64,000 nt of DNA from Halomonas sp. LBP4 (GTDB taxonomy: Bacteria > Pseudomonadota > Gammaproteobacteria > Pseudomonadales > Halomonadaceae), in the NCBI RefSeq assembly GCF_003202205.1, contig NZ_PDOG01000001.1:864459-928458 (forward strand), given 5' to 3'. Positions 23,758-56,952 of the stretch are shown here, one piece after another; position 1 is the stretch's first letter, and the number at the start of each line of letters is the position of its first letter. The notes beneath the pieces were generated by a model, which was given only the letters and a program-made list of their open reading frames with translations, made no database searches and was not told the DNA's origin. A program made the translations under genes and the position numbers.

Positions 23758-24405
23758 TCAGAGGTCATGCGGCTCGCCCGCGAAGCGCTTCTGCACCTCC
23801 ACCATATAGGCCGCCAGGGACGTCAGCTTCTCGCCACCCCACTCCAGCGGCTCGGCCGCCATGGGCGCCACCATGCAGACCTGCACCATCTCGTCGGCGT
23901 GAACCTCGGGCATACCGAACTGGCTGCTGGCCATCGCCACCTGATGGGGGAAGGGCTGCTCGAAGGTGGCCTTGTAGCCCACGTCATCGCCATCGCTACC
24001 GTGACAGGAAGCGCAGGACAGGCCATTGGTGCTCAATGAGGTGTCGTAATAGAGTTCCTCGCCGCGCGCCAGCAGCTCCTGCGGGTTCTCGTCCGTCTCG
24101 CTGTAGTCGGGTGTGTAGCCGTCGGGACGCCGTACCTCGGCACTCGAGCCGGCTTCGGCCTCCCCTTCCGCTTCTCCCTCGGCCTCCCCCTCGGCTTCCG
24201 CTTCTCCCTCGGCTACGGCATTACTGCTGGCGAGCAGAAGTGCCGCTTCGGAAACGGGGGCAAAGCCTGCCTCGGTCGAGGTATTGCCCGCCGTGGCCTG
24301 CAATGCCGCTCCGCCGGCCACCAGCGCCAGTACCGGGGCCGTGTAGGCGAACTGTCGGCTCAGGCGGCCTAGCAGTCTGCGGCGTTTGTCGTCATGCTGT
24401 GACAT
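23758..24405 (-). CDS. c-type cytochrome with TTL-locus leader and Glu-rich repeat
   Basis: 215 aa. Residues 1-38 match the leaders of the Glu-rich peptides at 39846-40157 and 56055-56243 (DDKRRRLLGRLS, then YTAPVLALVAGGAALQA). Residues 65-86 are AEGEAE-type repeats. From about 95 a small cytochrome c domain follows with one heme site C131-A-S-C134-H135 and several Met for the distal ligand. Heme attachment is periplasmic, so the shared leader should act as a signal or anchor. ATG 24405 follows GGAGG. Monocistronic. Confidence 0.82.
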   Translation of the reverse strand: MSQHDDKRRRLLGRLSRQFAYTAPVLALVAGGAALQATAGNTSTEAGFAPVSEAALLLASSNAVAEGEAEAEGEAEGEAEGEAEAGSSAEVRRPDGYTPDYSETDENPQELLARGEELYYDTSLSTNGLSCASCHGSDGDDVGYKATFEQPFPHQVAMASSQFGMPEVHADEMVQVCMVAPMAAEPLEWGGEKLTSLAAYMVEVQKRFAGEPHDL

Positions 24406-32960: not shown

Positions 32961-33518
32961 TCAGCGGGGGCTTCCCTCCCCGACCAGCCGTCGCAGGCTG
33001 AGCCACAGCCCGGCCACCAGCAGCAACAGCGCAATGGGAATCAGGAACGGCGTCAGACTGGCCAGGACCCCGGCAATCGGCAGCCCCAGCCAGATGAGCA
33101 CTATGGGAGCGCAGCAGGCCCCACCGGCCAGCAGCGCCGGAATCGCCGCCAGCAGTCCGGTACTCGACCCGCTCAGACCGCACTGCCGCGGGGTTCGCCA
33201 GAGCCACCAGCCGGCCACGATATTCAATCCGACCAGCAACCCCATGGAAACAGCGAGCAGGGTATTCAGCGGGCTGAAGGTCCACACCAGCGCTCCCAGG
33301 GTGAGCAGCCCCACCGGCTCGAACTGAAACAGGCCCCGCGCCTGGAAGACCCGTTCCCAGGCGGGAAAGGTGGCCTGCCAACCACCCGCGCCGCCACCGG
33401 CGATGTCGCCGGTCAGCCACAGGTAGAGCAGCGCATAGGCCGCCATGACGGCGCCTGCCGCGCCGGCCGAGGTGGGGCGCGAAAGCATCCTCAGGATGAC
33501 TCGGGCAAGCGGTTTCAT
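32961..33518 (-). CDS. Multi-pass membrane protein with Cys pair
   Basis: 185 aa with five hydrophobic segments. Between segments 3 and 4 it carries GGACCAPIVLIWLGLPIAG, where a Cys-Cys pair abuts a membrane helix, as seen in MerT-like and other thiol/metal membrane proteins. I do not recognise a named family. Its start overlaps the stop of the DUF3179 gene by four bases, so the two are made together. C-terminus is basic and cytoplasmic-looking. Confidence 0.65.
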   Translation of the reverse strand: MKPLARVILRMLSRPTSAGAAGAVMAAYALLYLWLTGDIAGGGAGGWQATFPAWERVFQARGLFQFEPVGLLTLGALVWTFSPLNTLLAVSMGLLVGLNIVAGWWLWRTPRQCGLSGSSTGLLAAIPALLAGGACCAPIVLIWLGLPIAGVLASLTPFLIPIALLLLVAGLWLSLRRLVGEGSPR

Positions 33519-34555
33519 GGTGCCTCCTGCCCCTCATACAGATAGGTATCGGGGTAGAAGGCGGCCCAGGCGAACCACATGGCCTCGAAGCCATTCACCG
33601 CCTCGAGCGAGTCGATGCCCGGCCCGGTGACGCCTTCGGCTGTGAAGTCGAGCTCGGTCGGTCGAATCTCCAGACCCTCGGGATTGTGGAAGGCCCAGCC
33701 AGTGTCCAGCCCCGGGTCATGAATGACGGTGTAGCGACGCTCGCCCAGTGTGACATCGACCACTCCCTCCTCGCGTAGCGCCTCACGGGTGATGGCCAGT
33801 GCGCCCTCGGGACCACGCACACCGAACACTTCGGTCTTGGGCGGAAAACGATCATCGCGTTGCATCACCGGGAACAACCGGCGGCTGTCGGGCGCATAAT
33901 AGCCGCTGGTGGGGTTGTAGCTTCCGTAGGGGTCGCGTCGATAGTTGCGCACGAAACCGGTCTGATCGGTCAGCACCTCGGTCTCGGGATGGCGTGCCTT
34001 CCAGGCCCCCCAGGTGGTCCAGAATACTCGGAGCTCCTCGAGCCCCTGGCCGGCCAGGGGCCCGTCGATGGCCACTCCCAGGATCTGGGGCCACTCGCTG
34101 TCCGTGGCGCGGTCATACATGATCAAGTTGCTGTTGACCAGCTTGCCGGAGACGCCGAGCTCGGTCTCGCCACGCTTGAAGCCCAGCGCGGTGCCCGTCA
34201 GGGGGCAGTAGGTGATGCTCAGCGCCTCACCGCCCAGTTCGTCATTGACGATCTCGTGCCAGACCAGGATGCGCTGGGGATAAGCCCGGGCCTGGCCGCG
34301 ATGGTAGACACCGATGACCTTGTCCCCATCCTTCAGCGTCGCCTCTCCCGCTGACTGAAAGCGCGGGCGATCGATGGACGGGATACCGTCCTTGCCGGGC
34401 CCTCCGGCACGGACGGCCTCCCGAAAAGACGCCAAGGAGTGCACCACAGGCACCGTGGGTGTCTCCTGGATGGGGGGGGCCGCTGCCATGGATGACAACG
34501 GCACAAGGCTCAGGGCGATGCCCAGCGCTGAATAGCGCAGCATACGCGGTATCAT
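33515..34555 (-). CDS. DUF3179-domain secreted protein
   Basis: 346 aa: signal peptide (SALGIALSLVPLSSMAAA), then the DUF3179 domain (about 50-330) with IPSIDRPRF, AYPQRILVWHEIVND, ITYCPLTGTALGF (a single conserved Cys), GVSGKLVNSNLIMYDR and PTSGYYAPDS. Function of the domain is unknown; proteins are periplasmic. ATG 34555 follows GAGGAGG. Paired with the Cys-containing membrane protein downstream. Confidence 0.85.
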   Translation of the reverse strand: MIPRMLRYSALGIALSLVPLSSMAAAPPIQETPTVPVVHSLASFREAVRAGGPGKDGIPSIDRPRFQSAGEATLKDGDKVIGVYHRGQARAYPQRILVWHEIVNDELGGEALSITYCPLTGTALGFKRGETELGVSGKLVNSNLIMYDRATDSEWPQILGVAIDGPLAGQGLEELRVFWTTWGAWKARHPETEVLTDQTGFVRNYRRDPYGSYNPTSGYYAPDSRRLFPVMQRDDRFPPKTEVFGVRGPEGALAITREALREEGVVDVTLGERRYTVIHDPGLDTGWAFHNPEGLEIRPTELDFTAEGVTGPGIDSLEAVNGFEAMWFAWAAFYPDTYLYEGQEAP

Positions 34556-34616
34556 GGCATCCTCCTCTGCCGGTCCCATGCCGGCCACGCGCCTGCTCCG
34601 GAACCGGTGACACGTC

Positions 34617-36722: not shown

Positions 36723-37373
36723 TAGGACACCTTCTTATTAGTGAGGCTTTCAAGCTCACGACGACTTATCGTGAGCCGGCGGACATCGGAATCGCCTTAT
36801 GATTTTACCATGCCACAAGGCAGGATTCACCATAAACCCTTCCCCCTACCACCCACCTTGTACAATAAAGAGGAGACAAGGCGGGTCCACACGCAAGGAA
36901 CCCATCCCATATCCAATGCATCGACTCGCCATTTAATCGGACTTTGTATTGAAAATAACATGGAGAAAACCGTTCAAGCAGACACTCATGTCCACCTTGC
37001 CACATGGCTGACATGCTGGCCAGGCTGCGCCACAAATCATGGAAGACGATTAACAAATAGCCACAGAATTCGCCAGCGAGATGGGTCGTAGCGGGGGCGT
37101 AAAAGGTTCGGCTGGTTGACGCACCGGCCTGAGCCCGCCGGTCGTGCCGAGCGACCCCAGCAGTCACAGAATATTGCAGGCCAACTGGATAAGATGCGGG
37201 ATCAGGTCGTTGGCGGCCAAACTTTCCCTATGGCTGGCGCTCCGGGTCGAGATCAGCCTTGATTTCACCGCCGAACGGCTGAAATGATCTCTTATTATCC
37301 GGTAAGGAAGTCGTCGATTATGCGACCAAGACGGATTGCCTGCATCCTCATGACACAGCGAGACGTAGCCTCG
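36723..37373. other. Intergenic region
   Basis: About 650 bases, noticeably more AT-rich than most of the window (especially 36800-36980). Holds the cyclase promoter and that of the DUF3047 gene. Several short open frames lack coding features; no RNA gene recognised. Confidence 0.45.
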
Positions 37374-38030
37374 ATGATCAAGCCCCTGATCCCGGTTGGC
37401 GTGCTGCTACTGGCAAGCTGCCTCTCCCTGGCGGCCGACGAGCTCTCCTTTTCCGCCGAGGCGATGATGGCCTGGCCGACACGCTCCTTCGAAGGCGAGA
37501 CGGAGTACCGGCTCGTCGAGCGAGATGGCACTCGAGTGCTCCAGGCCAGAGCCAGACAACAGGCCTCGGCGAAGTATCTGGAAAAGGAGGTGGATCTGGA
37601 CCGCACGCCCTACCTCCACTGGTGCTGGCAGGTATCGGGGATCCATCAGGGGCTCGATGAAACCACCAAGGCCGGGGACGACTATCCGGCGCGGATCTAT
37701 GTGGTGCGGAAGACGGGGATCCTGCCCTGGCAGGTCCAGTCGGTGAACTATGTCTGGGCTTCGAGTCAGCCAGCGGGCTCGGACTGGCCCAATGCCTTCA
37801 CGTCACGCGCCCGGTTACTGGCCCTTCAGGGCGGGAAATCGCGCGTGGGTCAATGGGTAGCGGAAGTCAGGGACGTGCGAGAGGACTTCGAGACACTCTT
37901 CGGGGAGCGCGCCAGCCGTGTCGATGGGGTGGCAGTGATGAGCGATGGTGACAATGCCGGTGTCGATGCCACCGCCTGGTACACGCATTTGGGATTCTCG
38001 GCCAGTGACGATCCGCCCGAGTGTCCATGA
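37374..38030 (+). CDS. DUF3047-family exported (lipo)protein
   Basis: 218 aa from ATG 37374: N-terminal IPVGVLLLASCLSLAADELS is a signal peptide with a possible lipobox (LAS-C). Then a DUF3047 domain: SKYLEKEVDLDRTP-like strand, LHWCWQV, GDDYPARIYVV, SVNYVWASSQPAG and DGVAVMSDGDNAG. Function unknown; probably periplasmic carbohydrate- or ligand-binding jelly-roll type. In-frame ATGs further upstream (37284, 37350) would put the signal peptide too far inside. Confidence 0.8.
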   Translation: MIKPLIPVGVLLLASCLSLAADELSFSAEAMMAWPTRSFEGETEYRLVERDGTRVLQARARQQASAKYLEKEVDLDRTPYLHWCWQVSGIHQGLDETTKAGDDYPARIYVVRKTGILPWQVQSVNYVWASSQPAGSDWPNAFTSRARLLALQGGKSRVGQWVAEVRDVREDFETLFGERASRVDGVAVMSDGDNAGVDATAWYTHLGFSASDDPPECP

Positions 38031-38040
38031 GACATGAAGC

Positions 38041-38073
38041 CCGGCACCTGGCCGACAGTCGGCCAGGTGCCGG
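38041..38073. terminator. Bidirectional hairpin between DUF3047 gene and the TTL operon
   Basis: A perfect 15-bp stem (CCGGCACCTGGCCGA and its complement) with a CAG loop lies between two convergent genes. T-run absent; likely transcription end for the locus A operon. Confidence 0.6.
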
Positions 38074-38076
38074 CGT

Positions 38077-38529
38077 TCAAGAGCCGCAGTTACGGCGCGC
38101 CACCCAGGAGGCAGGCCGAGTCCGATGCCTGGCATCCAAGGCAAACCGATCCTCTTCCCGGAATGCCATCACCACGAGACTGCCGGCGAAGATGATCAGG
38201 GAGGGATAGAACAAGACGTTGGTGCCTTCAAGGAACCATCCCCAGGGATCGATCACCGAGGCACTGACCGCCAGCAGCGACGCCCCGTTGAGCAGAAGTT
38301 GCAGCGGATAGACCCAGCGCCTGGCCAGTCCGATGATCACCAGCAGGCCGATCAGTATCTGGCCGGCGCCGGCCAGCGGCAGCAGGGTCCCGCTTGCCAG
38401 GACCCCGGAGTAGAAGTTCTCGGCAATGGCCCGGCTGTGATCGACATTGAGGATCTTGTTCACGCCCCAGACCAGCAGTAGCCCCCCCAGCGATACCCTC
38501 AGCAACAATAGACTCGCGATCTTCGTCAT
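38077..38529 (-). CDS. DoxX-family membrane protein (locus A)
   Basis: 150 aa with four hydrophobic helices, the DoxX layout: LLLLRVSLGGLLLVWGVNKIL, QILIGLLVIIGLARRW, LQLLLNGASLLAVSASV, FYPSLIIFAGSLVVMAF. DoxX-like proteins are linked to quinone- or thiol-based redox at the membrane. Last gene of the operon starting at 42716; start follows AGGAGG. Locus B carries a related gene (55535-55966) that is interrupted. Confidence 0.82.
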   Translation of the reverse strand: MTKIASLLLLRVSLGGLLLVWGVNKILNVDHSRAIAENFYSGVLASGTLLPLAGAGQILIGLLVIIGLARRWVYPLQLLLNGASLLAVSASVIDPWGWFLEGTNVLFYPSLIIFAGSLVVMAFREEDRFALDARHRTRPASWVARRNCGS

Positions 38530-38682
38530 TTCGCCTCCTCGATATTCCGGAGCATTTCTACGGCCTGTTACGCCACATCGGGCGGCAGGCAGGCGCGGAC
38601 TTGGTCGGTCTGGTCGCGGGTTCCTTACAGGCGGGCGGAGGCGATTACCGGCAAGTCGGCCACCATCCGCAGCGGCAGCGAG

Positions 38683-39168
38683 CTACTCTGTCCCCTCCTC
38701 TGCTCGACTCGCGATGGCCGCGAATACGGCATCGAGCTCGCGGCCGATCTCCTCCAGCGCCTCGCCGCCCTCCTCGACATAGGGGGCAAGGACATGACTC
38801 GGGGTCTTCCAGGACAGGGTGGCGCTTCCGTCGTCGTTCTCGGTAACGTAGAAGCGGATGGGCGCCTCGATCATGGCAGGGACACTGAGACGCAGGGTGC
38901 GCACGGCGAAATCGTTACGAAAGACGCCGACCACCCGATTACCGGGAATAGACTCGCCACGCCTGGCCGCGGCCTCGGTGGGCCCGGCTTCCGTCACGAT
39001 GAACATCCCTTCGGCCTCGACGGCGTCGCGCAGGGCCTCCAGCAGCTCGGCATAGGCGAGTGAGGTGGGGACCACCTCCCACCCCTGCTCGGGCCAGCGA
39101 GTATCCGCCGTCACGGGCGCGGCCAGCAGGAGCGCCAGGAGCCATGTCGCCAGTAGCGCCCGAGCCAT
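38683..39168 (-). CDS. DUF302-domain secreted protein (locus A)
   Basis: 161 aa: signal peptide (LLATWLLALLLAAPVTADT), then a DUF302 domain (about 35-140: YAELLEALRDAVEAEGMFIV, VVGVFRNDFAVRTL, APIRFYVTENDDGS). The domain is a small alpha-beta fold of unknown role, often near redox or metal genes. Its ATG shares one base with the DinB-like gene stop (TGATG), so it is translationally coupled. No counterpart was seen in locus B. Confidence 0.82.
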   Translation of the reverse strand: MARALLATWLLALLLAAPVTADTRWPEQGWEVVPTSLAYAELLEALRDAVEAEGMFIVTEAGPTEAAARRGESIPGNRVVGVFRNDFAVRTLRLSVPAMIEAPIRFYVTENDDGSATLSWKTPSHVLAPYVEEGGEALEEIGRELDAVFAAIASRAEEGTE

Positions 39169-39737
39169 CAGGCACTCCTCGCCGACACCGGGACAGAGGC
39201 TTCACGCTGCCAATGCCGCAGCGTGGAAGGGTGGACCCCGAACGCCTCGGGCAGTGCGATGCCGATCTGCTCGGCCAGCAGTCCGAGGATCGCCATGTGA
39301 TGAATGGTGTGGCTGGTCAGGAAGGCGAGTTCGCGCGCCAGGCTGGTCTCCAGCACCAGCGCGCCGTCGCCGACGGGATAGGTCTGGCCCAACCGAACCG
39401 ATGGACGCCGGTCGACCAAGGCCGCCAGCACGGCCTCGATCTCGGCCAGGCGGCGAGCCGCCTGGTGCGGCCACTGCTCGAGGAGCTCGTCGCGACGGCG
39501 CCGCTCGTAGTCGATGACATCGCCATCGGCCTCCAGACCGCTCAGCAAGGCATCGTAATGGTCGATGATATGGCGAACGTGCTTGCCGAGCGTATGGCGA
39601 CCGTGGTGACCGAAGGCCTGGCGGTAGTGCTCCGGCTCCAGATCGCCGACGAAATGCCTCAACTGTGACAACGCCAGGAGGTTCTCCTCGATGAGCCCCT
39701 CCTGCGGCGGGAAAGACCTGTGTGCTGTGGGCGACAT
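39168..39737 (-). CDS. DinB-like four-helix metal protein (locus A)
   Basis: 189 aa, DinB/YfiT-type bundle. Candidate metal ligands: H60 in RHIIDHYDALL and the SHTIHHMAI pair (H143, H146/H147). Bacterial DinB relatives include thiol-dependent transferases and hydrolases. The C-terminus FGVHPSTLRHWQRE is conserved with the paralogue at 56416-56952, which otherwise matches over nearly the whole length. Third gene of the locus A operon after the TTL gene and Glu-rich peptide gene. Confidence 0.82.
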   Translation of the reverse strand: MSPTAHRSFPPQEGLIEENLLALSQLRHFVGDLEPEHYRQAFGHHGRHTLGKHVRHIIDHYDALLSGLEADGDVIDYERRRRDELLEQWPHQAARRLAEIEAVLAALVDRRPSVRLGQTYPVGDGALVLETSLARELAFLTSHTIHHMAILGLLAEQIGIALPEAFGVHPSTLRHWQREASVPVSARSA

Positions 39738-39845
39738 GGCGGTTCACCTGTTGATCACAAGTAAGGAAGCCGTGGCCGGCGCCTGTGGCGTCCGGCCCGG
39801 CCACCCGTTCAGGGGCCTGAAGAACAGTTACCCCTCGGCTTCGGC

Positions 39846-40157
39846 TCAACCCTCGGCTTCACCTTCTCCTTCTCCTTCGCCTTCTCCTTCACCTTCGGCT
39901 TCACCTTCTCCTTCACCTTCGGCTTCGGCTTCGGCTTCGGCTTCACCCTCGGCCTCTGCGTCTCCTTCGGCCTGGGCTTCCGCCAGCATCAGGGGCGCTT
40001 CCTGGCCACTGGTGAAGGCCGGATCGGCCGACGTCTCGCTGGCCACGGCCTGGAAGGCCGCGCCACTGGCCACCAGCACCAGTGCCGGGGCCGAGTAGCC
40101 CAACTGGCGGCTGAGCCGACTCAACAGGCTACGACGCTTCTCGTCTTGCAGTGTCAT
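39846..40157 (-). CDS. Small leader protein with C-terminal Ala-Glu-Gly repeat tail (locus A)
   Basis: 103 aa. Residues 2-40 form a leader shared with two other proteins in the window: charged DEKRRSLLSRLSRQ followed by hydrophobic YSAPALVLVASGAAFQA. After a short linker, the last 35-40 residues are only Ala, Glu and Gly with one Asp (AEGDAEAEGEAEAE, then GEGEGE blocks), ending in EAEG at the stop. ATG 40157 follows GGAGGT. It lies 147 bases after the TTL-like enzyme gene. I infer it is the substrate or carrier of that enzyme. Confidence 0.78.
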   Translation of the reverse strand: MTLQDEKRRSLLSRLSRQLGYSAPALVLVASGAAFQAVASETSADPAFTSGQEAPLMLAEAQAEGDAEAEGEAEAEAEAEGEGEGEAEGEGEGEGEGEGEAEG

Positions 40158-40304
40158 GATAATGACCTCCATGATGACAAAAGGGCGACATGCGACAGCA
40201 TGTCATCGTGCAATGAAGGCAGCCCTCGTGGCTGGCTTCTCCTCGGCGTCACCGCTTCACGCGGCGCCGCGCTATGCTCGTGCACCTGCCGGTGCCAACA
40301 GTTC

Positions 40305-42716
40305 TCAGCCATTGGCCGTGGCCGTGTCGGACCGGCTGGCACTGGTTCCCGGCTCGCCAAGCGTGGCCAGCCAGGCGGCAACCGCCGTCGGGGATGGCTC
40401 CTCCTCGCCAGGCGACAGCGAGCGACGGTCAAGCCCGGAGAGCCACTCGCCGAGCGCCGTTACCGTGTGCGCGTCCAGTGGCGCGCCGGTGACGGAGACG
40501 CAGCACGGCAGCAGCGCACCCAGGACGTCCAGCGAGGAGGCCGGATCCAGTGCAGCGCCCGGACTCCCGTCGGGGTGCATACACAGCACACTGCGGATCT
40601 CGACGCTCTCGGGCACCCCTGCCGGGCTGCCGACGGCCACTTCCGGCATGGGCAGCCCCAGCGGCTCGACCCTTGGCGCCCCCGCCATGGTCAGCCGCAG
40701 CCCCCGTGCCAGGACGCCACCCGACGCCGACACCAGCTGCCGCAAGGCATCGCCGCTCTGCTCCCCGGCGGGGAACAGGCAGAGCACCCCCGAGCCCTGT
40801 GGTGTGACCAACAGCCCGGCATCGATCACCAGGCGATCCGCCGTGGCGGCCTGGCGCACCAGGTGGGCCAGCAGCGCCGAGCCGAGTTGCGCCAGCGTCA
40901 GTCGCGACGCCAGCACCTCGCCGTCGGTCGCCAGGGTGTAGCCTGCCGGATCGCGCAGGACCTCCAGCCGCGGCAATCGACTCGCCGCCTCGTCGCTCAG
41001 CGGCACGAGCCGCCCCTCGAGCAGGTCCGATAGCCGGGCGCTGGCGGGGGCGCTGTCGACATGCAGGGCCCAACGCCTGCCATCGAAAGCCAGTTGCATG
41101 GCCCGGCCCGACGAGGCCACCGTCGTCGGCGTCGGGCGCGACTCCCCTGCGCCGGTCGTCGGCGACGCCGGCACGGCCATGCTCCCCTGCTGGCACAGCA
41201 GGCCGGCACGGCACCAGCGGGCCAACGTGGCCCACACGTCACGGCGCAGCGCCTGATGGTCCGGAGGGGGATCGCCTTCGGTAACCGCTGCACGGGCCAG
41301 CTCGAGGGCAATGGCGTCGGGATCCAGCCCCTCCGTCGCCAGCAGCCAGATCAGCGCCGCCGAGTCGTTGGGCCGGTAGTAGCGACCGGTATGGGTGGCA
41401 TAGAGGGCGAGCTGGTCGTCATCCAGCAACTCCGCCACATGGCGGCGCTGCAGCACCGGGCGGGCGACGGCGCGGCCCGCCAGGCCATCGGCCAACTGGA
41501 TGTCGGCCAGCGCCGGCAGTGAGAAGTACGGCAGATAGCGCGACGGTTCCGCCGCCGGGAACAGGCGCTGGAAGTCTCCGGCACGCGCCAGCTCCGCCTC
41601 GGCCTCGGCGACCAGGCGGGCGCTGACGTCGGCACCGGACGACTCGTCTGCCGGCGGCGCGGCGCCATCGATGTCCAGCAGCGAGATCATGTCCCGGACC
41701 AGGCCACCCTTGACGGCCTCCTCGATGCGCCCGCCACTCTCCGGCCCGGCACAGATGCCCAGCGACGGACTGAGGTTGCACTCGAGAATCCAGGGCTTGA
41801 GCGTGTCGTCCACCAGGCAGTCGAGCCCCAGCAGCTCATAGCATCCCCGAGGGTCGGCGCCAGCCCGGGCGGTGCGCTGTCGGATGGCATCCACCGCGGA
41901 AATCACGGTCAGGGCAACCAGATCGTGGATCCGGGCAAAGAGCTGGTCGTCGTCATGGCCCTGATCGCGGAGCCACTGGCGATAGCGGTCGAGGTCGATG
42001 AACTCCACCGGCACCTCCGCCCGAGCGTTGAGGGCGTTGATGTCCGGGTTGGTCAGCTGGCTGTAGGGGTTGTCGGCATCCTCGGGGTCCCAGGGTTCCG
42101 AGGCCAGCTTGGCGAACCCCTGGCGATAGAGATAGACGCGCAGCGGCTCGATAGCCGAAATCAGTACATAGAGCCGCAGGACATACTTGTGGCCCCGGAT
42201 CGTATGGGGATTGGCGAGGTACTCCTGGACCATCCAGTCTGGTGCCAGGGGGGCCTCGGCCACATCGCGCAGCACCCTGATACCCTTGCCCTTGGAGGCA
42301 TTGGTGGGCTTGAGGATCCAGCGCTGCCCCGGGTTCGCCAGGGCCGCCTCCTGAAGGGCATGATAGTCATGGGGCATTACGTAGGCCCGGGGGAAAAACG
42401 CCAGCCGCGCTGCCAGTTCACTGTCGGCACCGTGGCTCTCGCGAATGCGCTCACGCAGCACCGCCAGGCTGTCGTGGAGCCGGCTCTTGACGGTGAGCGC
42501 CGCATTGCCCGGAAAGTGGTTGAGCCTGCGCTGCGGCGAGACCCGGTGGAACTGCTCGGCATCGGGCATGCCCGTGACCCAGCCGGCGTCCCAGTGGGTC
42601 TCGTCTCCTGCCTCCCAGCCCAGTTGCTCCAGGGCCTCACAAAAAAACCGATCCTGCTCGGCGGCCCGCTTGCCACCCAGCCAGAAACGCCGTGTCGGCG
42701 AGTGCTGCTCCGTCAT
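40305..42716 (-). CDS. TTL-type ATP-grasp ligase with PqqD-like and HprK-like domains (locus A)
   Basis: 803 aa, cytoplasmic. TTL-like ligase about 60-345: WILKPTNASKGKGIRVL (133-149), VQEYLANPHTIRGHKYVLRL (163-182), LLGLDCLVDDTLKPWILECN (295-314) with the E-x-N metal site then SPSLG. PqqD/RRE-like domain about 430-510 (RYYRPNDSAALIWLLATEGL, DVWATLARWCRAGLL). HprK-related region about 540-695 whose P-loop position (FPAGEQSGDAL) lacks the GK-S/T. ATG 42716 after AGGAGAG; a homologue at 54722 starts at the same point. Likely ligates an amino acid or peptide to a Glu-rich tail; substrate inferred. Confidence 0.82.
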   Translation of the reverse strand: MTEQHSPTRRFWLGGKRAAEQDRFFCEALEQLGWEAGDETHWDAGWVTGMPDAEQFHRVSPQRRLNHFPGNAALTVKSRLHDSLAVLRERIRESHGADSELAARLAFFPRAYVMPHDYHALQEAALANPGQRWILKPTNASKGKGIRVLRDVAEAPLAPDWMVQEYLANPHTIRGHKYVLRLYVLISAIEPLRVYLYRQGFAKLASEPWDPEDADNPYSQLTNPDINALNARAEVPVEFIDLDRYRQWLRDQGHDDDQLFARIHDLVALTVISAVDAIRQRTARAGADPRGCYELLGLDCLVDDTLKPWILECNLSPSLGICAGPESGGRIEEAVKGGLVRDMISLLDIDGAAPPADESSGADVSARLVAEAEAELARAGDFQRLFPAAEPSRYLPYFSLPALADIQLADGLAGRAVARPVLQRRHVAELLDDDQLALYATHTGRYYRPNDSAALIWLLATEGLDPDAIALELARAAVTEGDPPPDHQALRRDVWATLARWCRAGLLCQQGSMAVPASPTTGAGESRPTPTTVASSGRAMQLAFDGRRWALHVDSAPASARLSDLLEGRLVPLSDEAASRLPRLEVLRDPAGYTLATDGEVLASRLTLAQLGSALLAHLVRQAATADRLVIDAGLLVTPQGSGVLCLFPAGEQSGDALRQLVSASGGVLARGLRLTMAGAPRVEPLGLPMPEVAVGSPAGVPESVEIRSVLCMHPDGSPGAALDPASSLDVLGALLPCCVSVTGAPLDAHTVTALGEWLSGLDRRSLSPGEEEPSPTAVAAWLATLGEPGTSASRSDTATANG

Positions 42717-42868
42717 TCCCACGCTCTCCTGCTCGGCCGTCGCTGTTGTCGTGTGGTGCACCGTAATGGTTACGTCGTCGCTCGCCCCCCGTCCTTACAG
42801 CGATAACAACCGAAACGCGATCTGTCGCGGGGTTGATTTATGGACTGATCGGTACTAAATTCCAGGGC

Positions 42869-43456
42869 ATGACACGAGGACGCCCCATCGCATTCAGCCC
42901 CGACGCGGCCACGAACGCCGCCATGCAGGTCTTCTGGGCCCGTGGTTACGAGAGTGCCTCGACCCGCGACCTGCTGGAGGCCATGAACATCTCGCGCAGT
43001 AGCCTCTACCAGGCCTTCGGCAACAAGGAGCAACTGTTCCTCGAGACACTGCGCCGCTACCGCGGCAACCTGATCGGCCAGCTGAACCGCCGGCTCGAGG
43101 CCTCACCCTCGGCCATGGCCTTCCTGGAGGGCCTGTTCGGGGAGACGGCCCGGGAGGCCGGCAGCGAGCGTGCCGGCCTGGGCTGTCTGATCTTCAATTC
43201 GGCCAGTGAGCTCGGCCAGCGGGGCGACCTCGCGGCCAGCGAGGCCAGGCGCAGCGTGGAGGCCATCACCGGGCTATTCCAGGAGGCCGTCATGCGGGCC
43301 CAGGCCGAAGGCGATATCGCCGCGGACCGCGATTCCCTGGCACTCGCGACCTACTTGACGCTGGGCATGGCCGGCCTGCGCACCCTGCTCAAGTCCGGTG
43401 CCGATCGCGCACAGGTCGAGGCTGCCGCACAGTTGCTCCTCGACACGCTTCGCTGA
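42869..43456 (+). CDS. TetR-family transcriptional regulator
   Basis: 195 aa: N-terminal helix-turn-helix (residues 5-55: AAMQVFWARGYESASTRDLL, ISRSSLYQAFGNKEQLF) and an all-helical ligand domain with LGCLIFNSASELGQRG and TYLTLGMAGLRTLLKSGAD. Sequence resembles the NemR/AcrR-like group acting on reactive small molecules. ATG 42869. Divergent from the TTL operon (152-base shared gap) and 106 bases upstream of the CMD gene. It probably binds the inverted repeat at 43491-43516. Confidence 0.88.
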   Translation: MTRGRPIAFSPDAATNAAMQVFWARGYESASTRDLLEAMNISRSSLYQAFGNKEQLFLETLRRYRGNLIGQLNRRLEASPSAMAFLEGLFGETAREAGSERAGLGCLIFNSASELGQRGDLAASEARRSVEAITGLFQEAVMRAQAEGDIAADRDSLALATYLTLGMAGLRTLLKSGADRAQVEAAAQLLLDTLR

Positions 43457-43562: not shown

Positions 43563-44132
43563 ATGGCAGCCGACTATCAGATGCGACTCGCGCCCCAGAC
43601 CCTCGACAACGCCGACGCCAAGGCCCGGCCGCTGCTCGAGCAGGCCAACGCCAAGCTGGGTTTCGTGCCCAAGATGTACGAGGGCATGGCCAAGGCACCC
43701 GGGGTCCTGGACACCTACCTGCATGGCTATACGCTGTTCCGCGAGGAATCCGGCTTTGCACCGCCCGAGCAGGAAGTGGTGCTCCTGACCATCAGTCGGC
43801 TCAACGGCTGCGACTACTGCATGGCGGCCCACAGCATGCTGGCGGAAAAGATGTCGCAGGTACCCGCCGATGTGCTGGAGGCCATCCGTAATGACCAACC
43901 CATCCCCGATGAGCGCTTGGCGGCCCTGAGCACGTTCACCAAGGTGATGTTCGAGACCCGCGGCATGCCCACCCGGGACGACGTCAAGGCCTTCCTGGAC
44001 GCCGGCTTCGAGGAGGCGCAGGTGCTGCAGATTGTGCTGGCGCTGGCCGTGAAGACGCTCTCCAACTACTCCAACCACGTCAATCATCCGGAACTCGACG
44101 AGGCCTTCGCCGGCCACGCCTGGAAGGGCTGA
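43563..44132 (+). CDS. Carboxymuconolactone decarboxylase-family (AhpD-like) protein
   Basis: 189 aa with the AhpD/CMD active-site pattern C83-D-Y-C86-x3-H90 in RLNGCDYCMAAHS, preceded by ESGFAPPEQEVVLLTIS. Such proteins are thiol peroxidase partners or decarboxylases; the CxxC-H site argues for alkylhydroperoxidase-type activity. Ribosome site AGGAGG precedes the ATG. Likely induced through the TetR regulator encoded just upstream. Confidence 0.88.
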   Translation: MAADYQMRLAPQTLDNADAKARPLLEQANAKLGFVPKMYEGMAKAPGVLDTYLHGYTLFREESGFAPPEQEVVLLTISRLNGCDYCMAAHSMLAEKMSQVPADVLEAIRNDQPIPDERLAALSTFTKVMFETRGMPTRDDVKAFLDAGFEEAQVLQIVLALAVKTLSNYSNHVNHPELDEAFAGHAWKG

Positions 44133-54721: not shown

Positions 54722-55483
54722 ATGTCAGACCAGAAGATCCTTTCGCGCCGCTACTGGTTGGGCGGTAAGCGCGCCGCCGAGCAGGATCGGTTCTTTCGGG
54801 AAGCGCTCGATCCGCTGGGCTGGGAGCAGGGTGACGCCGATCACTGGGATGCCGGGTGGTTCACCGGCATGCCCGACCCTGCCCAGTTCAAGCGAGTATC
54901 GCCACAGCGCAAGCTCAACCACTTTCCCGGGAATAGTGCCCTCACGGTGAAAAGCCGCCTGCACGACAGCTTGGCCGCCATGCGGGCTCGAGTCATCGAG
55001 ACGTTCGGGCCCACGCACGAGGCCGTAGCGCGCCTGGACTTCTTTCCTCGGGTCTATTCCATGCCGAAGGACTACCATGCCTTTCAGCAGGCAGCCCTGT
55101 CAGCCCCCGACAAGCGCTGGATTCTCAAGCCCAAGAATAAAGTGGTGGCCTCGCGATTGACGCTGGCCAAGCTTGGTCCGGCGGTGATCGCCTACCTGGC
55201 CCGAGAGGCCGCCTCGGCTCATCGCATGACTGCGCCTGACGCCGCTCATGGACACGTATCGACCCTGGACACCTTGGGTGCCCTGCTGCCGTCCTGTTTT
55301 ACCGCCGACGGCAAGCCGCTGGATACGGCCACCGTGACAGCGCTGGCCGACTGGCTTTCCCGTTGCGAGCGGCGCGCGGTCGAGGTGGATGACGAGGCCG
55401 ATTCGGCTCAGGTGCTGGCCGAGTCATTGAAAGAGTTCCTGGCGCCCCAGCATGCACCAGCCGGGATCGCCGCAACATCGTGA
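54722..55483 (+). pseudogene. Internally deleted TTL-ligase homologue (locus B)
   Basis: 253 aa, open from ATG (GGAGG upstream) to stop but missing most of the enzyme. Residues 1-136 match the N-terminus of the 803-aa protein (RYWLGGKRAAEQDRFFREAL; ending RWILKPKN). The frame then jumps to the part equivalent to residues about 600-627 (VVASRLTLAKLGPAVIAYLA) and again to about 727-770 (STLDTLGALLPSCF, DTATVTALADWLS). Both deletions, about 460 and 100 residues, are in frame. The ATP-grasp core, PqqD-like and HprK-like domains are lost, so no ligase activity is expected. Confidence 0.8.
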
Positions 55484-55534
55484 AACCGCTTATTCCGCTG
55501 CGTATTCAGCGATACATGCCAAGGAGATGACAAT

Positions 55535-55966
55535 ATGCAAAGTGATATCACCACGCCCCATAAGGACCCGTTGCCTGTCGAGCGGCATGCGCACTGGATA
55601 CTTCGTTTCGCCCTGGCCAGCGTCTTTCTTTACCTGGGGATTGACAAGTTCATGGGCAGCGGCATCGGGGCATTTTCCCGCCTGATGGAGCTGCCTGTGG
55701 TGCTGGGAACTGCCGTGGCGCTCGGAGAGATTACCGCCGGGCTCCTGATCCTGCTCGGTGGGATGATGGCTAATCCGTTGGGCGATCTGGCCACCCGGTA
55801 AGGGGCGCTGATCATGGTCCCGCCCCTGCTGGGCGCCATTTTCATGGTGTACTGGGGACAGTGGCATTTCATGGCCACAGCGATGCATCCGCTGGGCGGC
55901 ATGATGTTTCAAGCCACTCTCGTGCTAGTGGCGGCGTACCTGATGGCCAAGGGCAACAATGCCTGA
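55535..55966 (+). pseudogene. DoxX-family gene with in-frame stop (locus B)
   Basis: DoxX-type four-helix protein (WILRFALASVFLYLGIDKFM, ALGEITAGLLILLGGMM) with a TAA at 55799-55801 after GDLATR; the same frame then continues through LIMVPPLLGAIFMVYWGQWH and MFQATLVLVAAYLMAKGNNA to a stop at 55966. The second half is clearly the rest of the protein, so the gene has a nonsense mutation. Counterpart of 38077-38529 in locus A. Read-through or a split product is possible but not supported. Confidence 0.8.
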
Positions 55967-56054
55967 GCAAACCGCTTCCCTGCTGGGTCACTGCGGCCAG
56001 GCCAGGGACTCTTTCATCAAGTTACAACCCTGGCGCACTGGACCAGGAGCACAT

Positions 56055-56243
56055 ATGTCGGATGACAAGCGGCGAACCCTTCTCGAAAGCCTGTCAAAGG
56101 GCATCGCCTATACGGTACCGGTTATCGTGCTGGCCACGGGCGGCTCGGCTCTGCACGCGATCTATGCCGACACTGCCACCGAAAGCGGCTATCAGATGAT
56201 GGCCGAGGGTGAGGCAGAAGGTGAAGCCGAGGCTGAAGGCTGA
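56055..56243 (+). CDS. Short leader peptide with Glu-rich tail (locus B)
   Basis: 62 aa. Leader DDKRRTLLESLSKG plus hydrophobic IAYTVPVIVLATGGSALHAI matches those at 23758-24405 and 39846-40157. The tail is short, AEGEAEGEAEAEG, ending at the stop. ATG 56055 has AGGAG six bases before. The frame and ribosome site are intact although its neighbouring ligase and doxX genes are broken; any modification would have to come from the locus A enzyme. Confidence 0.75.
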   Translation: MSDDKRRTLLESLSKGIAYTVPVIVLATGGSALHAIYADTATESGYQMMAEGEAEGEAEAEG

Positions 56244-56415
56244 TCCCTCGTCCAACGTCTGAATGGGAAGCTGGAGCCTGGAGGCATGCGAAAGACTGGC
56301 TCTGGCTTCCCTCCCTCCCCCTTCCACCACTCTGACTGCACTGCATAGCGGACAGACTCAGAGAACCAACGGGAAAGGCACCATGTCATCCATTACCCAC
56401 ATGCCCTCATAGGAA

Positions 56416-56952
56416 ATGGAGGAACTCATCGAGGAGAACCTCCAGGCCCTGTCGCAGCTCAAGGACTTCGTGGCTGAGCTATCGCCGGTACACTACCGGC
56501 AAGCGTTCGGCGACCATGGACGGCACACCCTGGGCAAACACATTCGTCACCTCATCGATCATTACGATGCCTTGCTGGGTGACGGTACCTTGCCCGCCGA
56601 CGCCACGATCGACTACGAGCATCGCCAGCGCGATACGTCTCTCGAACAATCGCCGCTTCGTGCCGCCCAGCGTCTGGCCTGGATCGAGAGCAGGCTGCAA
56701 GGGCTAAAGCGAGAGTCTGTCCATGACGCCCTCCAGCTGGCATACCCTGCCGGCGGATCCACTCTGGATCTTGGTTCCAGCCTGGGACGTGAACTGGCCT
56801 TCCTGACCAGTCACACCATTCATCACATGGCGATCATCGGTCTGTTGGCGGAAAGCCTTGGCATCGGCCTACCCGAGGAGTTTGGCGTCCACCCCTCTAC
56901 GCTGCGGCACTGGCAGCGTGAATCGGCCGAACATTCCGCAAGGAGTGCCTGA
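56416..56952 (+). CDS. DinB-like four-helix metal protein (locus B)
   Basis: 178 aa, closely similar to the 39168-39737 product (LIEENLQALSQLKDFVAELS, GRHTLGKHIRHLIDHYDALL, RELAFLTSHTIHHMAIIGLL, FGVHPSTLRHWQRE). The same His candidates for metal binding are kept. Intact frame; start ATG 56416 is aligned with residue 12 of the paralogue, no better start upstream. Confidence 0.8.
   Translation: MEELIEENLQALSQLKDFVAELSPVHYRQAFGDHGRHTLGKHIRHLIDHYDALLGDGTLPADATIDYEHRQRDTSLEQSPLRAAQRLAWIESRLQGLKRESVHDALQLAYPAGGSTLDLGSSLGRELAFLTSHTIHHMAIIGLLAESLGIGLPEEFGVHPSTLRHWQRESAEHSARSA

Follow-up and report, generated by a model that had tools for sequence, protein, structure and literature searches.

A bacterial TTLL-type ligase fused to a RiPP recognition element and linked to leader-bearing proteins with glutamate-rich tracts

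In the material consulted, several enzymes are described that put glutamates on proteins. TTLL5, a eukaryotic polyglutamylase of the tubulin-tyrosine ligase-like (TTLL) type, acts on the Glu-Gly repeats in RPGR, with a separate helix-binding domain recruiting the enzyme (PMC13052805), while RimK adds glutamates to ribosomal protein S6 and the Legionella effector SidJ is a calmodulin-dependent glutamylase with a pseudokinase fold. Among the ribosomally synthesized and post-translationally modified peptides (RiPPs), the bufferins carry Sec signal peptides in place of classical leaders, and DoxX is one of their core genes (PMC12452194). Here we describe an operon in a 64,000-nucleotide stretch of Halomonas sp. 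LBP4 ('the window'; contig NZ_PDOG01000001.1, positions 864,459 to 928,458, in a genome of 4.76 Mb and 60 contigs). It encodes a fusion of a TTLL-type ATP-grasp ligase, a PqqD-like RiPP recognition element (RRE) and a degenerate HprK-like domain, followed by a small protein with a conserved leader and a tail of Ala, Glu and Gly. We consider it fairly probable that the fusion enzyme performs a leader-guided modification: with the leader held by the RRE, the TTLL domain would join an amino acid, most likely glutamate, to the tract before export.

Every domain of the enzyme is already known; the TTLL-RRE-HprK-like assembly was not found in the literature searched. In that literature, no paper was found to link tubulin-tyrosine ligase (TTL) to PqqD, to Halomonas, or to RiPP together with ATP-grasp; in two RRE-mining papers that were searched, neither 'tubulin' nor 'TTL' appears in the main text.

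The fusion enzyme and its operon

The whole operon lies on the minus strand and runs from 42716 to 38077, as stated in a preliminary description made from the sequence alone. Its features, and a second leader-bearing gene elsewhere in the window, are as follows.

40305..42716, minus strand: TTLL-RRE-HprK-like fusion protein, 803 aa (ATG start, stop included)
41523..42695, minus strand: TTLL-type ATP-grasp fold, residues 8-398 (structure match to TTLL6 6vzq_D)
41184..41462, minus strand: PqqD-like RRE, about residues 419-511 (Pfam, structure and sequence profile, 0.0011)
40323..41144, minus strand: degenerate HprK/PEPCK-like domain, about residues 525-798, without Walker A (profile alignment and model)
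39846..40157, minus strand: candidate class A precursor, leader plus Ala/Glu/Gly tail, tail at 39849-39983 (leader, composition)
39168..39737, minus strand: DinB-family protein, core partner (DinB_2 3.6e-6)
38683..39168, minus strand: DUF302 protein with an N-terminal signal-like segment (by eye), accessory (DUF302 2.3e-5)
38077..38529, minus strand: DoxX membrane protein, accessory (DoxX 3.4e-8)
23758..24405, minus strand: candidate class B precursor, same leader, Glu-rich tract and SoxA/TsdA-like mono-haem cytochrome c (PF21342 2.3e-6)

The preliminary description had assigned TTL, PqqD/RRE and HprK-like domains to the fusion enzyme, and structure searches match all three folds; the first assignment is refined in that the closest solved relatives are polyglutamylases, not TTL itself. 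Specifically, residues 62-321 match PF03133 (TTL) in Pfam at 8.2e-51, with 173 bits against a cut-off of 20.1. In a search with a 15-row family profile, the best matches are the tubulin polyglutamylases TTLL6 (1.3e-48), TTLL7 (9e-40) and TTLL11 (1.4e-23), and TTL trails them at 4e-13 and weaker. A structural model built from 39 aligned rows (mean predicted local distance difference test score, pLDDT, 84.5) superposes on TTLL6 (6vzq_D) with a Z score of 41.6 and a root-mean-square deviation (rmsd) of 2.7 over 370 residues at 27% identity, followed by TTLL11 (Z 36.0), TTLL7 (33.7) and TTL (31.6). Among the matches listed, the closest named relative of the enzyme is from Halomonas heilongjiangensis (88% identity).

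The aligned rows draw on 71 loci found by scanning species genomes with the enzyme profile. A full-length TTL open reading frame (ORF) was recovered by motif in 62 of them, which excludes L113, L131, L157, L167, L169, L171, L174, L178 and L180; selection under 80% identity left 38 of these 62, and the Marinobacter enzyme lies outside the 39 rows. Residues K136, K177, R181, D299, E312 and N314, which we take to be the conserved ATP/Mg ligands of the ATP-grasp fold, are kept in all 39 rows. The column of TTLL6 residue Q180 holds K in 34 bacterial rows and R in five, and the column of H362 holds L in all 39. According to a review, which also mentions glycylases and tyrosinases, Q180 and H362 decide between elongation and initiation, and Arg at position 180 favours gamma-linked addition (PMC7970040); a paper on TTLL11 names Q180 the primary determinant (PMC12366701). 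The replacement of these residues by K/R and L suggests an initiase-like, side-chain chemistry for the bacterial enzymes.

The C-terminal half of the enzyme was barely tested in the whole-protein structure comparison and was therefore modelled and searched alone (mean pLDDT 87.8). Residues 437-507 match PF05402 (PqqD) in Pfam (4.8e-6; 27.3 bits, over the cut-off of 23.4), and the RRE superposes on lasso B1-leader complexes with Z scores of 12.8-13.3 (6jx3_B: rmsd 1.7, 84 residues) and on a PqqD structure with a Z score of 9.0; by fold and sequence alike, it is a winged-helix RRE. The HprK-like part of the window enzyme matches no family model. The remainder of the half aligns with the PEPCK 1ytm (Z 9.7, rmsd 4.3, 246 residues) and with the HPr kinase 1knx (Foldseek E 3.6e-3). 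Furthermore, most of the stretch from residue 415 to 803 can be aligned with a PqqD-HprK_rel_A fusion: in the C-terminal profile, positions 17-357 of 378 align with such a protein of another gammaproteobacterium (G524). That protein matches TIGR04352 at 3.3e-28, below the cut-off of that model, and keeps a P-loop, GSGKST, that is without counterpart in the aligned enzyme-family profile; TIGR04353 is matched by 10 of the 39 family members at E <= 0.1. Alignment and model thus indicate an HprK/PEPCK fold that has lost its Walker A P-loop. The degenerate HprK domain of the preliminary description is correct, because of the alignment to the P-loop-bearing fusion and the PEPCK/HprK fold match, and only its extent changes, from residues 540-695 to about 525-798.

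Leader-bearing proteins and their linkage to the enzyme

Three proteins encoded in the window share a leader of the approximate form [KR]R..LL..LS[RK]..Y..P, and the leader-carrying proteins fall into at least three classes, one of them a cytochrome c. Among 15 diverse leaders, positions M1, L11 and P24 never vary, and R8 and L15 hardly do. The leader is continued by a hydrophobic segment whose end, AxA, resembles that of a signal peptide; export of the products is therefore probable. A Tat signal was set aside by eye, RR being often absent from the leader (KRQ, DSRQ, DKRK). The tail protein first described is real: after 'AEAQ', the final 41 residues of the class A protein are Ala, Glu, Gly and one Asp, and the protein contains no Cys. 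Matches of the tail to TrAA12, NESP55 and PARP were taken as low-complexity. In the class B protein, the leader and a Glu/Ala/Gly tract precede a mono-haem cytochrome c domain, which also matches the SoxA-type di-haem cytochrome 1h31 (E 1.3e-5); the internal position of this tract argues against a C-terminal extension. As in RiPP systems, the precursors are ribosomal, the leader is conserved and there is linkage to a modifying enzyme.

Across 77 short proteins (64 loci plus the window; the L148 ORF, with no tail start by the rule used, was left out), the tails comprise 3056 residues, including 1237 E, 759 A, 756 G and 26 D. Their Asp/Glu ratio is 0.02, where the background, taken from other genes at these loci, is 0.93, and their codons are mixed (GAA 800, GAG 437; all four GGN and all four GCN used). 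The mixed codons argue against triplet slippage, and a chance origin or slippage was rejected on the basis of Asp exclusion and codon mixing. The tail composition also bears on graspetide-like crosslinking, in which the ATP-grasp enzyme would form macrolactones or macrolactams within the tail. ATP-grasp ligases do act on RiPP precursors, but potential acceptors are scarce (43 S, 9 T and 23 K in the 3056 residues, and no Ser, Thr or Lys in the window tail) and the enzyme is TTLL-type, making such crosslinking very improbable.

The 71 enzyme loci come from Halomonadaceae, Marinobacter persicus, Aquisalimonas and other Ectothiorhodospiraceae, and one metagenome-assembled genome labelled Alphaproteobacteria. 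The proposed linkage of the ligase to the leader/Glu-tail family is borne out in these loci: a leader protein is present in 68 at E <= 0.1 and in 67 at 1e-4 (the L171 match is weak, 0.0045), and 64 encode a short leader protein no more than 2 kb away from TTL. Three loci gave no leader match: a 3 kb contig (L167), a TTL fragment (L178) and a TTL 0.9 kb from a contig end (L160). The leader persists in most enzyme relatives at 43-44% identity. When 145 relatives were searched, the leader was found in 50 and the enzyme in 47, and 41 of the 50 have at least two leader matches, the second mostly in a longer ORF.

Among 250 family genomes, which share organisms with the 71 loci and are not independent of them, 66 carry TTL and leader, one TTL alone, one leader alone and 182 neither (Fisher p about 2e-58, with relatedness ignored). 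The enzyme is thus found in 67 genomes (8 of 24 genera), and the leader likewise in 67 (7 of 24 genera). The TTL-only genome, Aidingimonas halophila (G164), holds a fragment matching residues 1-204. At this locus (L178, 9974-10792), a weak DinB-like ORF (5.7e-7) overlaps the end of the fragment, there is no leader protein, and the module looks decayed. In the leader-only genome (G008; L181, L187), the stretch with enzyme, class A and DinB is missing by comparison with a near relative (L064; G066), with which the flanks align at 84-95%; G008 is in effect a natural knock-out strain.

In a class-wide sample of 369 genomes, the four with an RRE-including enzyme are the four with strong leader matches; one of these enzymes matches only to model position 475. 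Another genome of this sample, G607, gives a partial enzyme-profile match. Weak leader matches in G560 (4.8e-5) and G684 (3.8e-4) were not accepted, and no Glu-tail protein was seen among the listed ORFs of at least 60 aa at the G560 locus. G513 (L192, 1408-3453) encodes a standalone bacterial TTL of 367 aa without a PqqD match; together with the 248-aa protein downstream, which has a conspicuous LPAHAQTS in its N-terminal region, it possibly forms another TTL-substrate pair.

Cytochrome tracts, partner genes and a proposed mechanism

Within the 71 loci, 18 of 19 cytochrome-domain ORFs carry leader and tract, the nineteenth being a 55-aa fragment. The cytochrome domain occurs in 55 of 221 family genomes, with the leader upstream of it in 41 of 43 TTL-positive and in 1 of 12 TTL-negative genomes, the one being G008 (Fisher p 7e-9, relatedness again ignored), indicating that it is the enzyme, and not the cytochrome, that leader and Glu tract follow. 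Nine of the other 11 TTL-negative cytochromes combine a signal peptide of ordinary appearance with a Cys-rich NPCA-repeat tract, and the N-terminus of that of G251 is disrupted. In TTL-negative G006 (L212), a leader stub is fused straight to the haem domain, the rest of the leader and the tract being gone. G291, a TTL-positive exception, has lost the N-terminal part of its cytochrome.

At all 10 loci examined, the Cys-tract cytochrome has a DUF6969 gene (PF22308, 4e-76) next to it. These loci are those of the nine genomes above and of TTL-positive G152; DUF6969 was not found in any of the 71 enzyme loci or in the window. G152 stands on both sides, its enzyme locus (L142) stopping short of the DUF6969 gene. 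Five of the 10 DUF6969 loci also encode a short NPCA-repeat protein. At L218 (8305-10182) and L219-L227, a cytochrome c and short proteins bear the NPCA-repeat Cys-rich tracts. NPCA/DUF6969 is a candidate for a separate modification or metal-binding system; a literature search for DUF6969 found no paper. A tree of 30 cytochrome domains requires two changes of the Glu/Cys-tract label, but well-supported branches force only one change, so that repeated tract swapping is not proven. We put forward tentatively, as a possibility, that leader-guided polyglutamylation of exported proteins exists and that the cytochrome c tract is a swappable slot that serves either of two unrelated systems of modification, a TTLL-RRE ligase working on Glu tracts (with DinB) or DUF6969 working on Cys-rich NPCA tracts, each with companion short peptides carrying the same kind of tract.

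The same distribution bears on whether the leader proteins are substrates at all. The leader might instead serve only as a signal peptide specific to the lineage, with the acidic tracts acting unmodified, as halophilic linkers or metal buffers, and the ligase modifying something else. Inspection by eye does show features of a signal peptide in the leader, and acidic proteins are typical of halophiles, to which most of the hosts belong. However, 182 of 183 TTL-negative family genomes are without a leader match, orthologous cytochromes without TTL mostly lack leader and tract, the tails avoid Asp, unlike general acidity, and the enzyme carries an RRE. We judge this explanation improbable.

The identities given earlier to the DinB-like, DUF302 and DoxX proteins are upheld by the family matches listed above. 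As a set they hold in part: DinB is a core component, present in 65 of the 71 loci when the weak L178 match is included (L127, L160, L164, L167, L170 and L171 are without it), whereas DUF302 (40 loci) and DoxX (19 loci, at low detection sensitivity) are accessory. In the 250 genomes, the DinB subfamily of the module (E <= 1e-15) occurs in 65, all TTL- and leader-positive; G085 and G164 are without it. A PDB sequence search with the DinB profile returned nothing useful. Rhodanese is present in 48 loci and CMD and TetR in 38 each; the rhodanese, DUF302, DoxX and AhpD-like neighbours hint at a periplasmic redox or sulphur setting.

With such neighbours, the cargo could differ. TTL-family members ligate Tyr, Gly or Glu, and Gly, Tyr, a thiol amino acid or another amine might be ligated here, with DinB, rhodanese, DUF302 and DoxX acting on a sulphur-bearing product. 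The tight coupling of DinB, the frequency of rhodanese and DUF302 and the SoxA/TsdA-like cytochrome are consistent with this, but the nearest solved structures are glutamylases, rhodanese, DUF302 and DoxX are not universal, and no thiol-substrate residue was identified; a different cargo is unlikely, in our estimate.

We favour leader-guided glutamylation. In the cytoplasm, before their export, several proteins would be bound at the conserved N-terminal leader by the RRE of the fusion enzyme, whose TTLL-type ATP-grasp domain would activate carboxylates of the Glu-rich tract. An amino acid, most likely glutamate, would then be ligated via side-chain (gamma-carboxyl) isopeptide bonds, giving branched polyanionic tracts. 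The short peptides and the SoxA/TsdA-like cytochrome c would then probably be exported through Sec. DinB is a near-universal partner in the system. Established are the fold, the conserved catalytic residues, the shared leader, the linkage and the tracking of TTL presence by leader and tract; the leader-guided Glu-tail ligase of the preliminary description is supported by fold and linkage, and the modification itself stays inferred.

Several points weigh against this proposal. RRE-leader binding, the ligated residue, the linkage type, export and the role of the system are inferred; the selectivity residues of TTLL enzymes are transferred across 27% identity; and the co-occurrence counts are not corrected for phylogeny. 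The leader resembles a signal peptide, and its conservation could partly serve export. For seven of the 71 loci, the 2 kb on either side of TTL hold no short leader protein. At L127, L157 and L170 the only leader protein at the locus is of the cytochrome type, and in G079 (corresponding to L127) and G005 (corresponding to L170) a different contig carries class A and DinB together. G008 retains an intact Glu-tract cytochrome though TTL, class A and DinB are gone, G152 is TTL-positive yet its cytochrome has a Cys tract, and G085 has TTL and leader without DinB. Moreover, plain glutamylation leaves DinB unexplained.

Further features of the window lie around the operon and in a decayed second copy of the module (54722-56952, plus strand), in which TTL has a large internal deletion and DoxX is split, and an intact-looking leader/EG peptide and DinB are kept.

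42833..43456, plus strand: divergent TetR-type protein, candidate regulator (family-model match; 38 of 71 loci)
43563..44132, plus strand: CMD/AhpD-like protein, accessory, diverging from the operon (38 of 71 loci)
54722..55483, plus strand: second TTL gene, a remnant with residues 1-139 joined to about 718-783
55535..55966, plus strand: DoxX remnant of the second module, in two frames (by eye)
56055..56243, plus strand: candidate class C precursor, leader plus short EG/EA tail (leader)
56416..56952, plus strand: DinB of the second module

DUF3179 (14 of 71 loci) and DUF3047 (33 of 71 loci), represented near the operon by window genes at 33518-34588 (minus strand) and 37284-38027 (plus strand), may be only syntenic neighbours. 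The fusion-enzyme ORF as listed opens at GTG 42761, and its relatives open at the counterpart of ATG 42716. Within 38000-43000, no sigma-70 promoter-like site was found, and five terminator-like sites were found against 1.4 expected. An NCBIfam search of the window proteins gave no TTL, DinB or HprK call.

Comparison with known systems

A bacterial origin of the TTL family was reportedly proposed by Iyer et al. in 2009. For the question of how TTL enzymes choose their targets, the present system supplies concrete bacterial TTLL enzymes, likely substrates, and natural genomes with and without the enzyme. If glutamylation is indeed the reaction, the system would add a new class to the known bacterial protein modifications and would parallel, in bacteria, the TTLL-type polyglutamylation of tubulin and RPGR, with a defined leader as the tag. 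It would also be a RiPP-like system with a folded redox protein among its products, and would offer a tractable, possibly programmable way of placing branched glutamates on chosen proteins.

Like lasso B1 RRE pathways, the system has the fold of the leader-bound B1 RRE, a leader followed by a variable core, and operon linkage; unlike in those pathways, neither a lasso cyclase nor a protease was found when the operon genes were scanned, the leader is also signal-peptide-like, and one candidate substrate is a whole cytochrome c. Signal-peptide-type precursors and DoxX are shared with the bufferins, whose precursors have conserved Cys and are MNIO-modified, whereas the tail here is without Cys, the enzyme is an ATP-grasp ligase and the operon genes scanned belong to families other than MNIO. 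Graspetides differ in the Ser/Thr/Lys acceptors, which are rare in the tails here and absent from that of the window. With the HPr-rel-A system (TIGR04352/TIGR04353), the enzyme shares homology between its C-terminal half and a PqqD-HprK_rel_A fusion, but the P-loop has been lost and the half is fused behind a TTLL ligase.

RimK and SidJ likewise put glutamates on a protein, and the material consulted reports no use of a leader or RRE for either. The enzyme resembles eukaryotic TTLL polyglutamylases (TTLL6, TTLL7, TTLL11, and TTLL5 on RPGR) in its fold over about 390 residues, its ATP-grasp residues, the acidic Glu/Gly-rich target tracts and target recognition via an extra domain. It differs from them in being bacterial, in the RRE and HprK-like domain that follow the core and in its leader-bearing precursors, and from TTLL6 in having K/R and L in place of Q180 and H362. 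TTLL5 acting on RPGR is the eukaryotic parallel to the leader-guided glutamylation proposed here.

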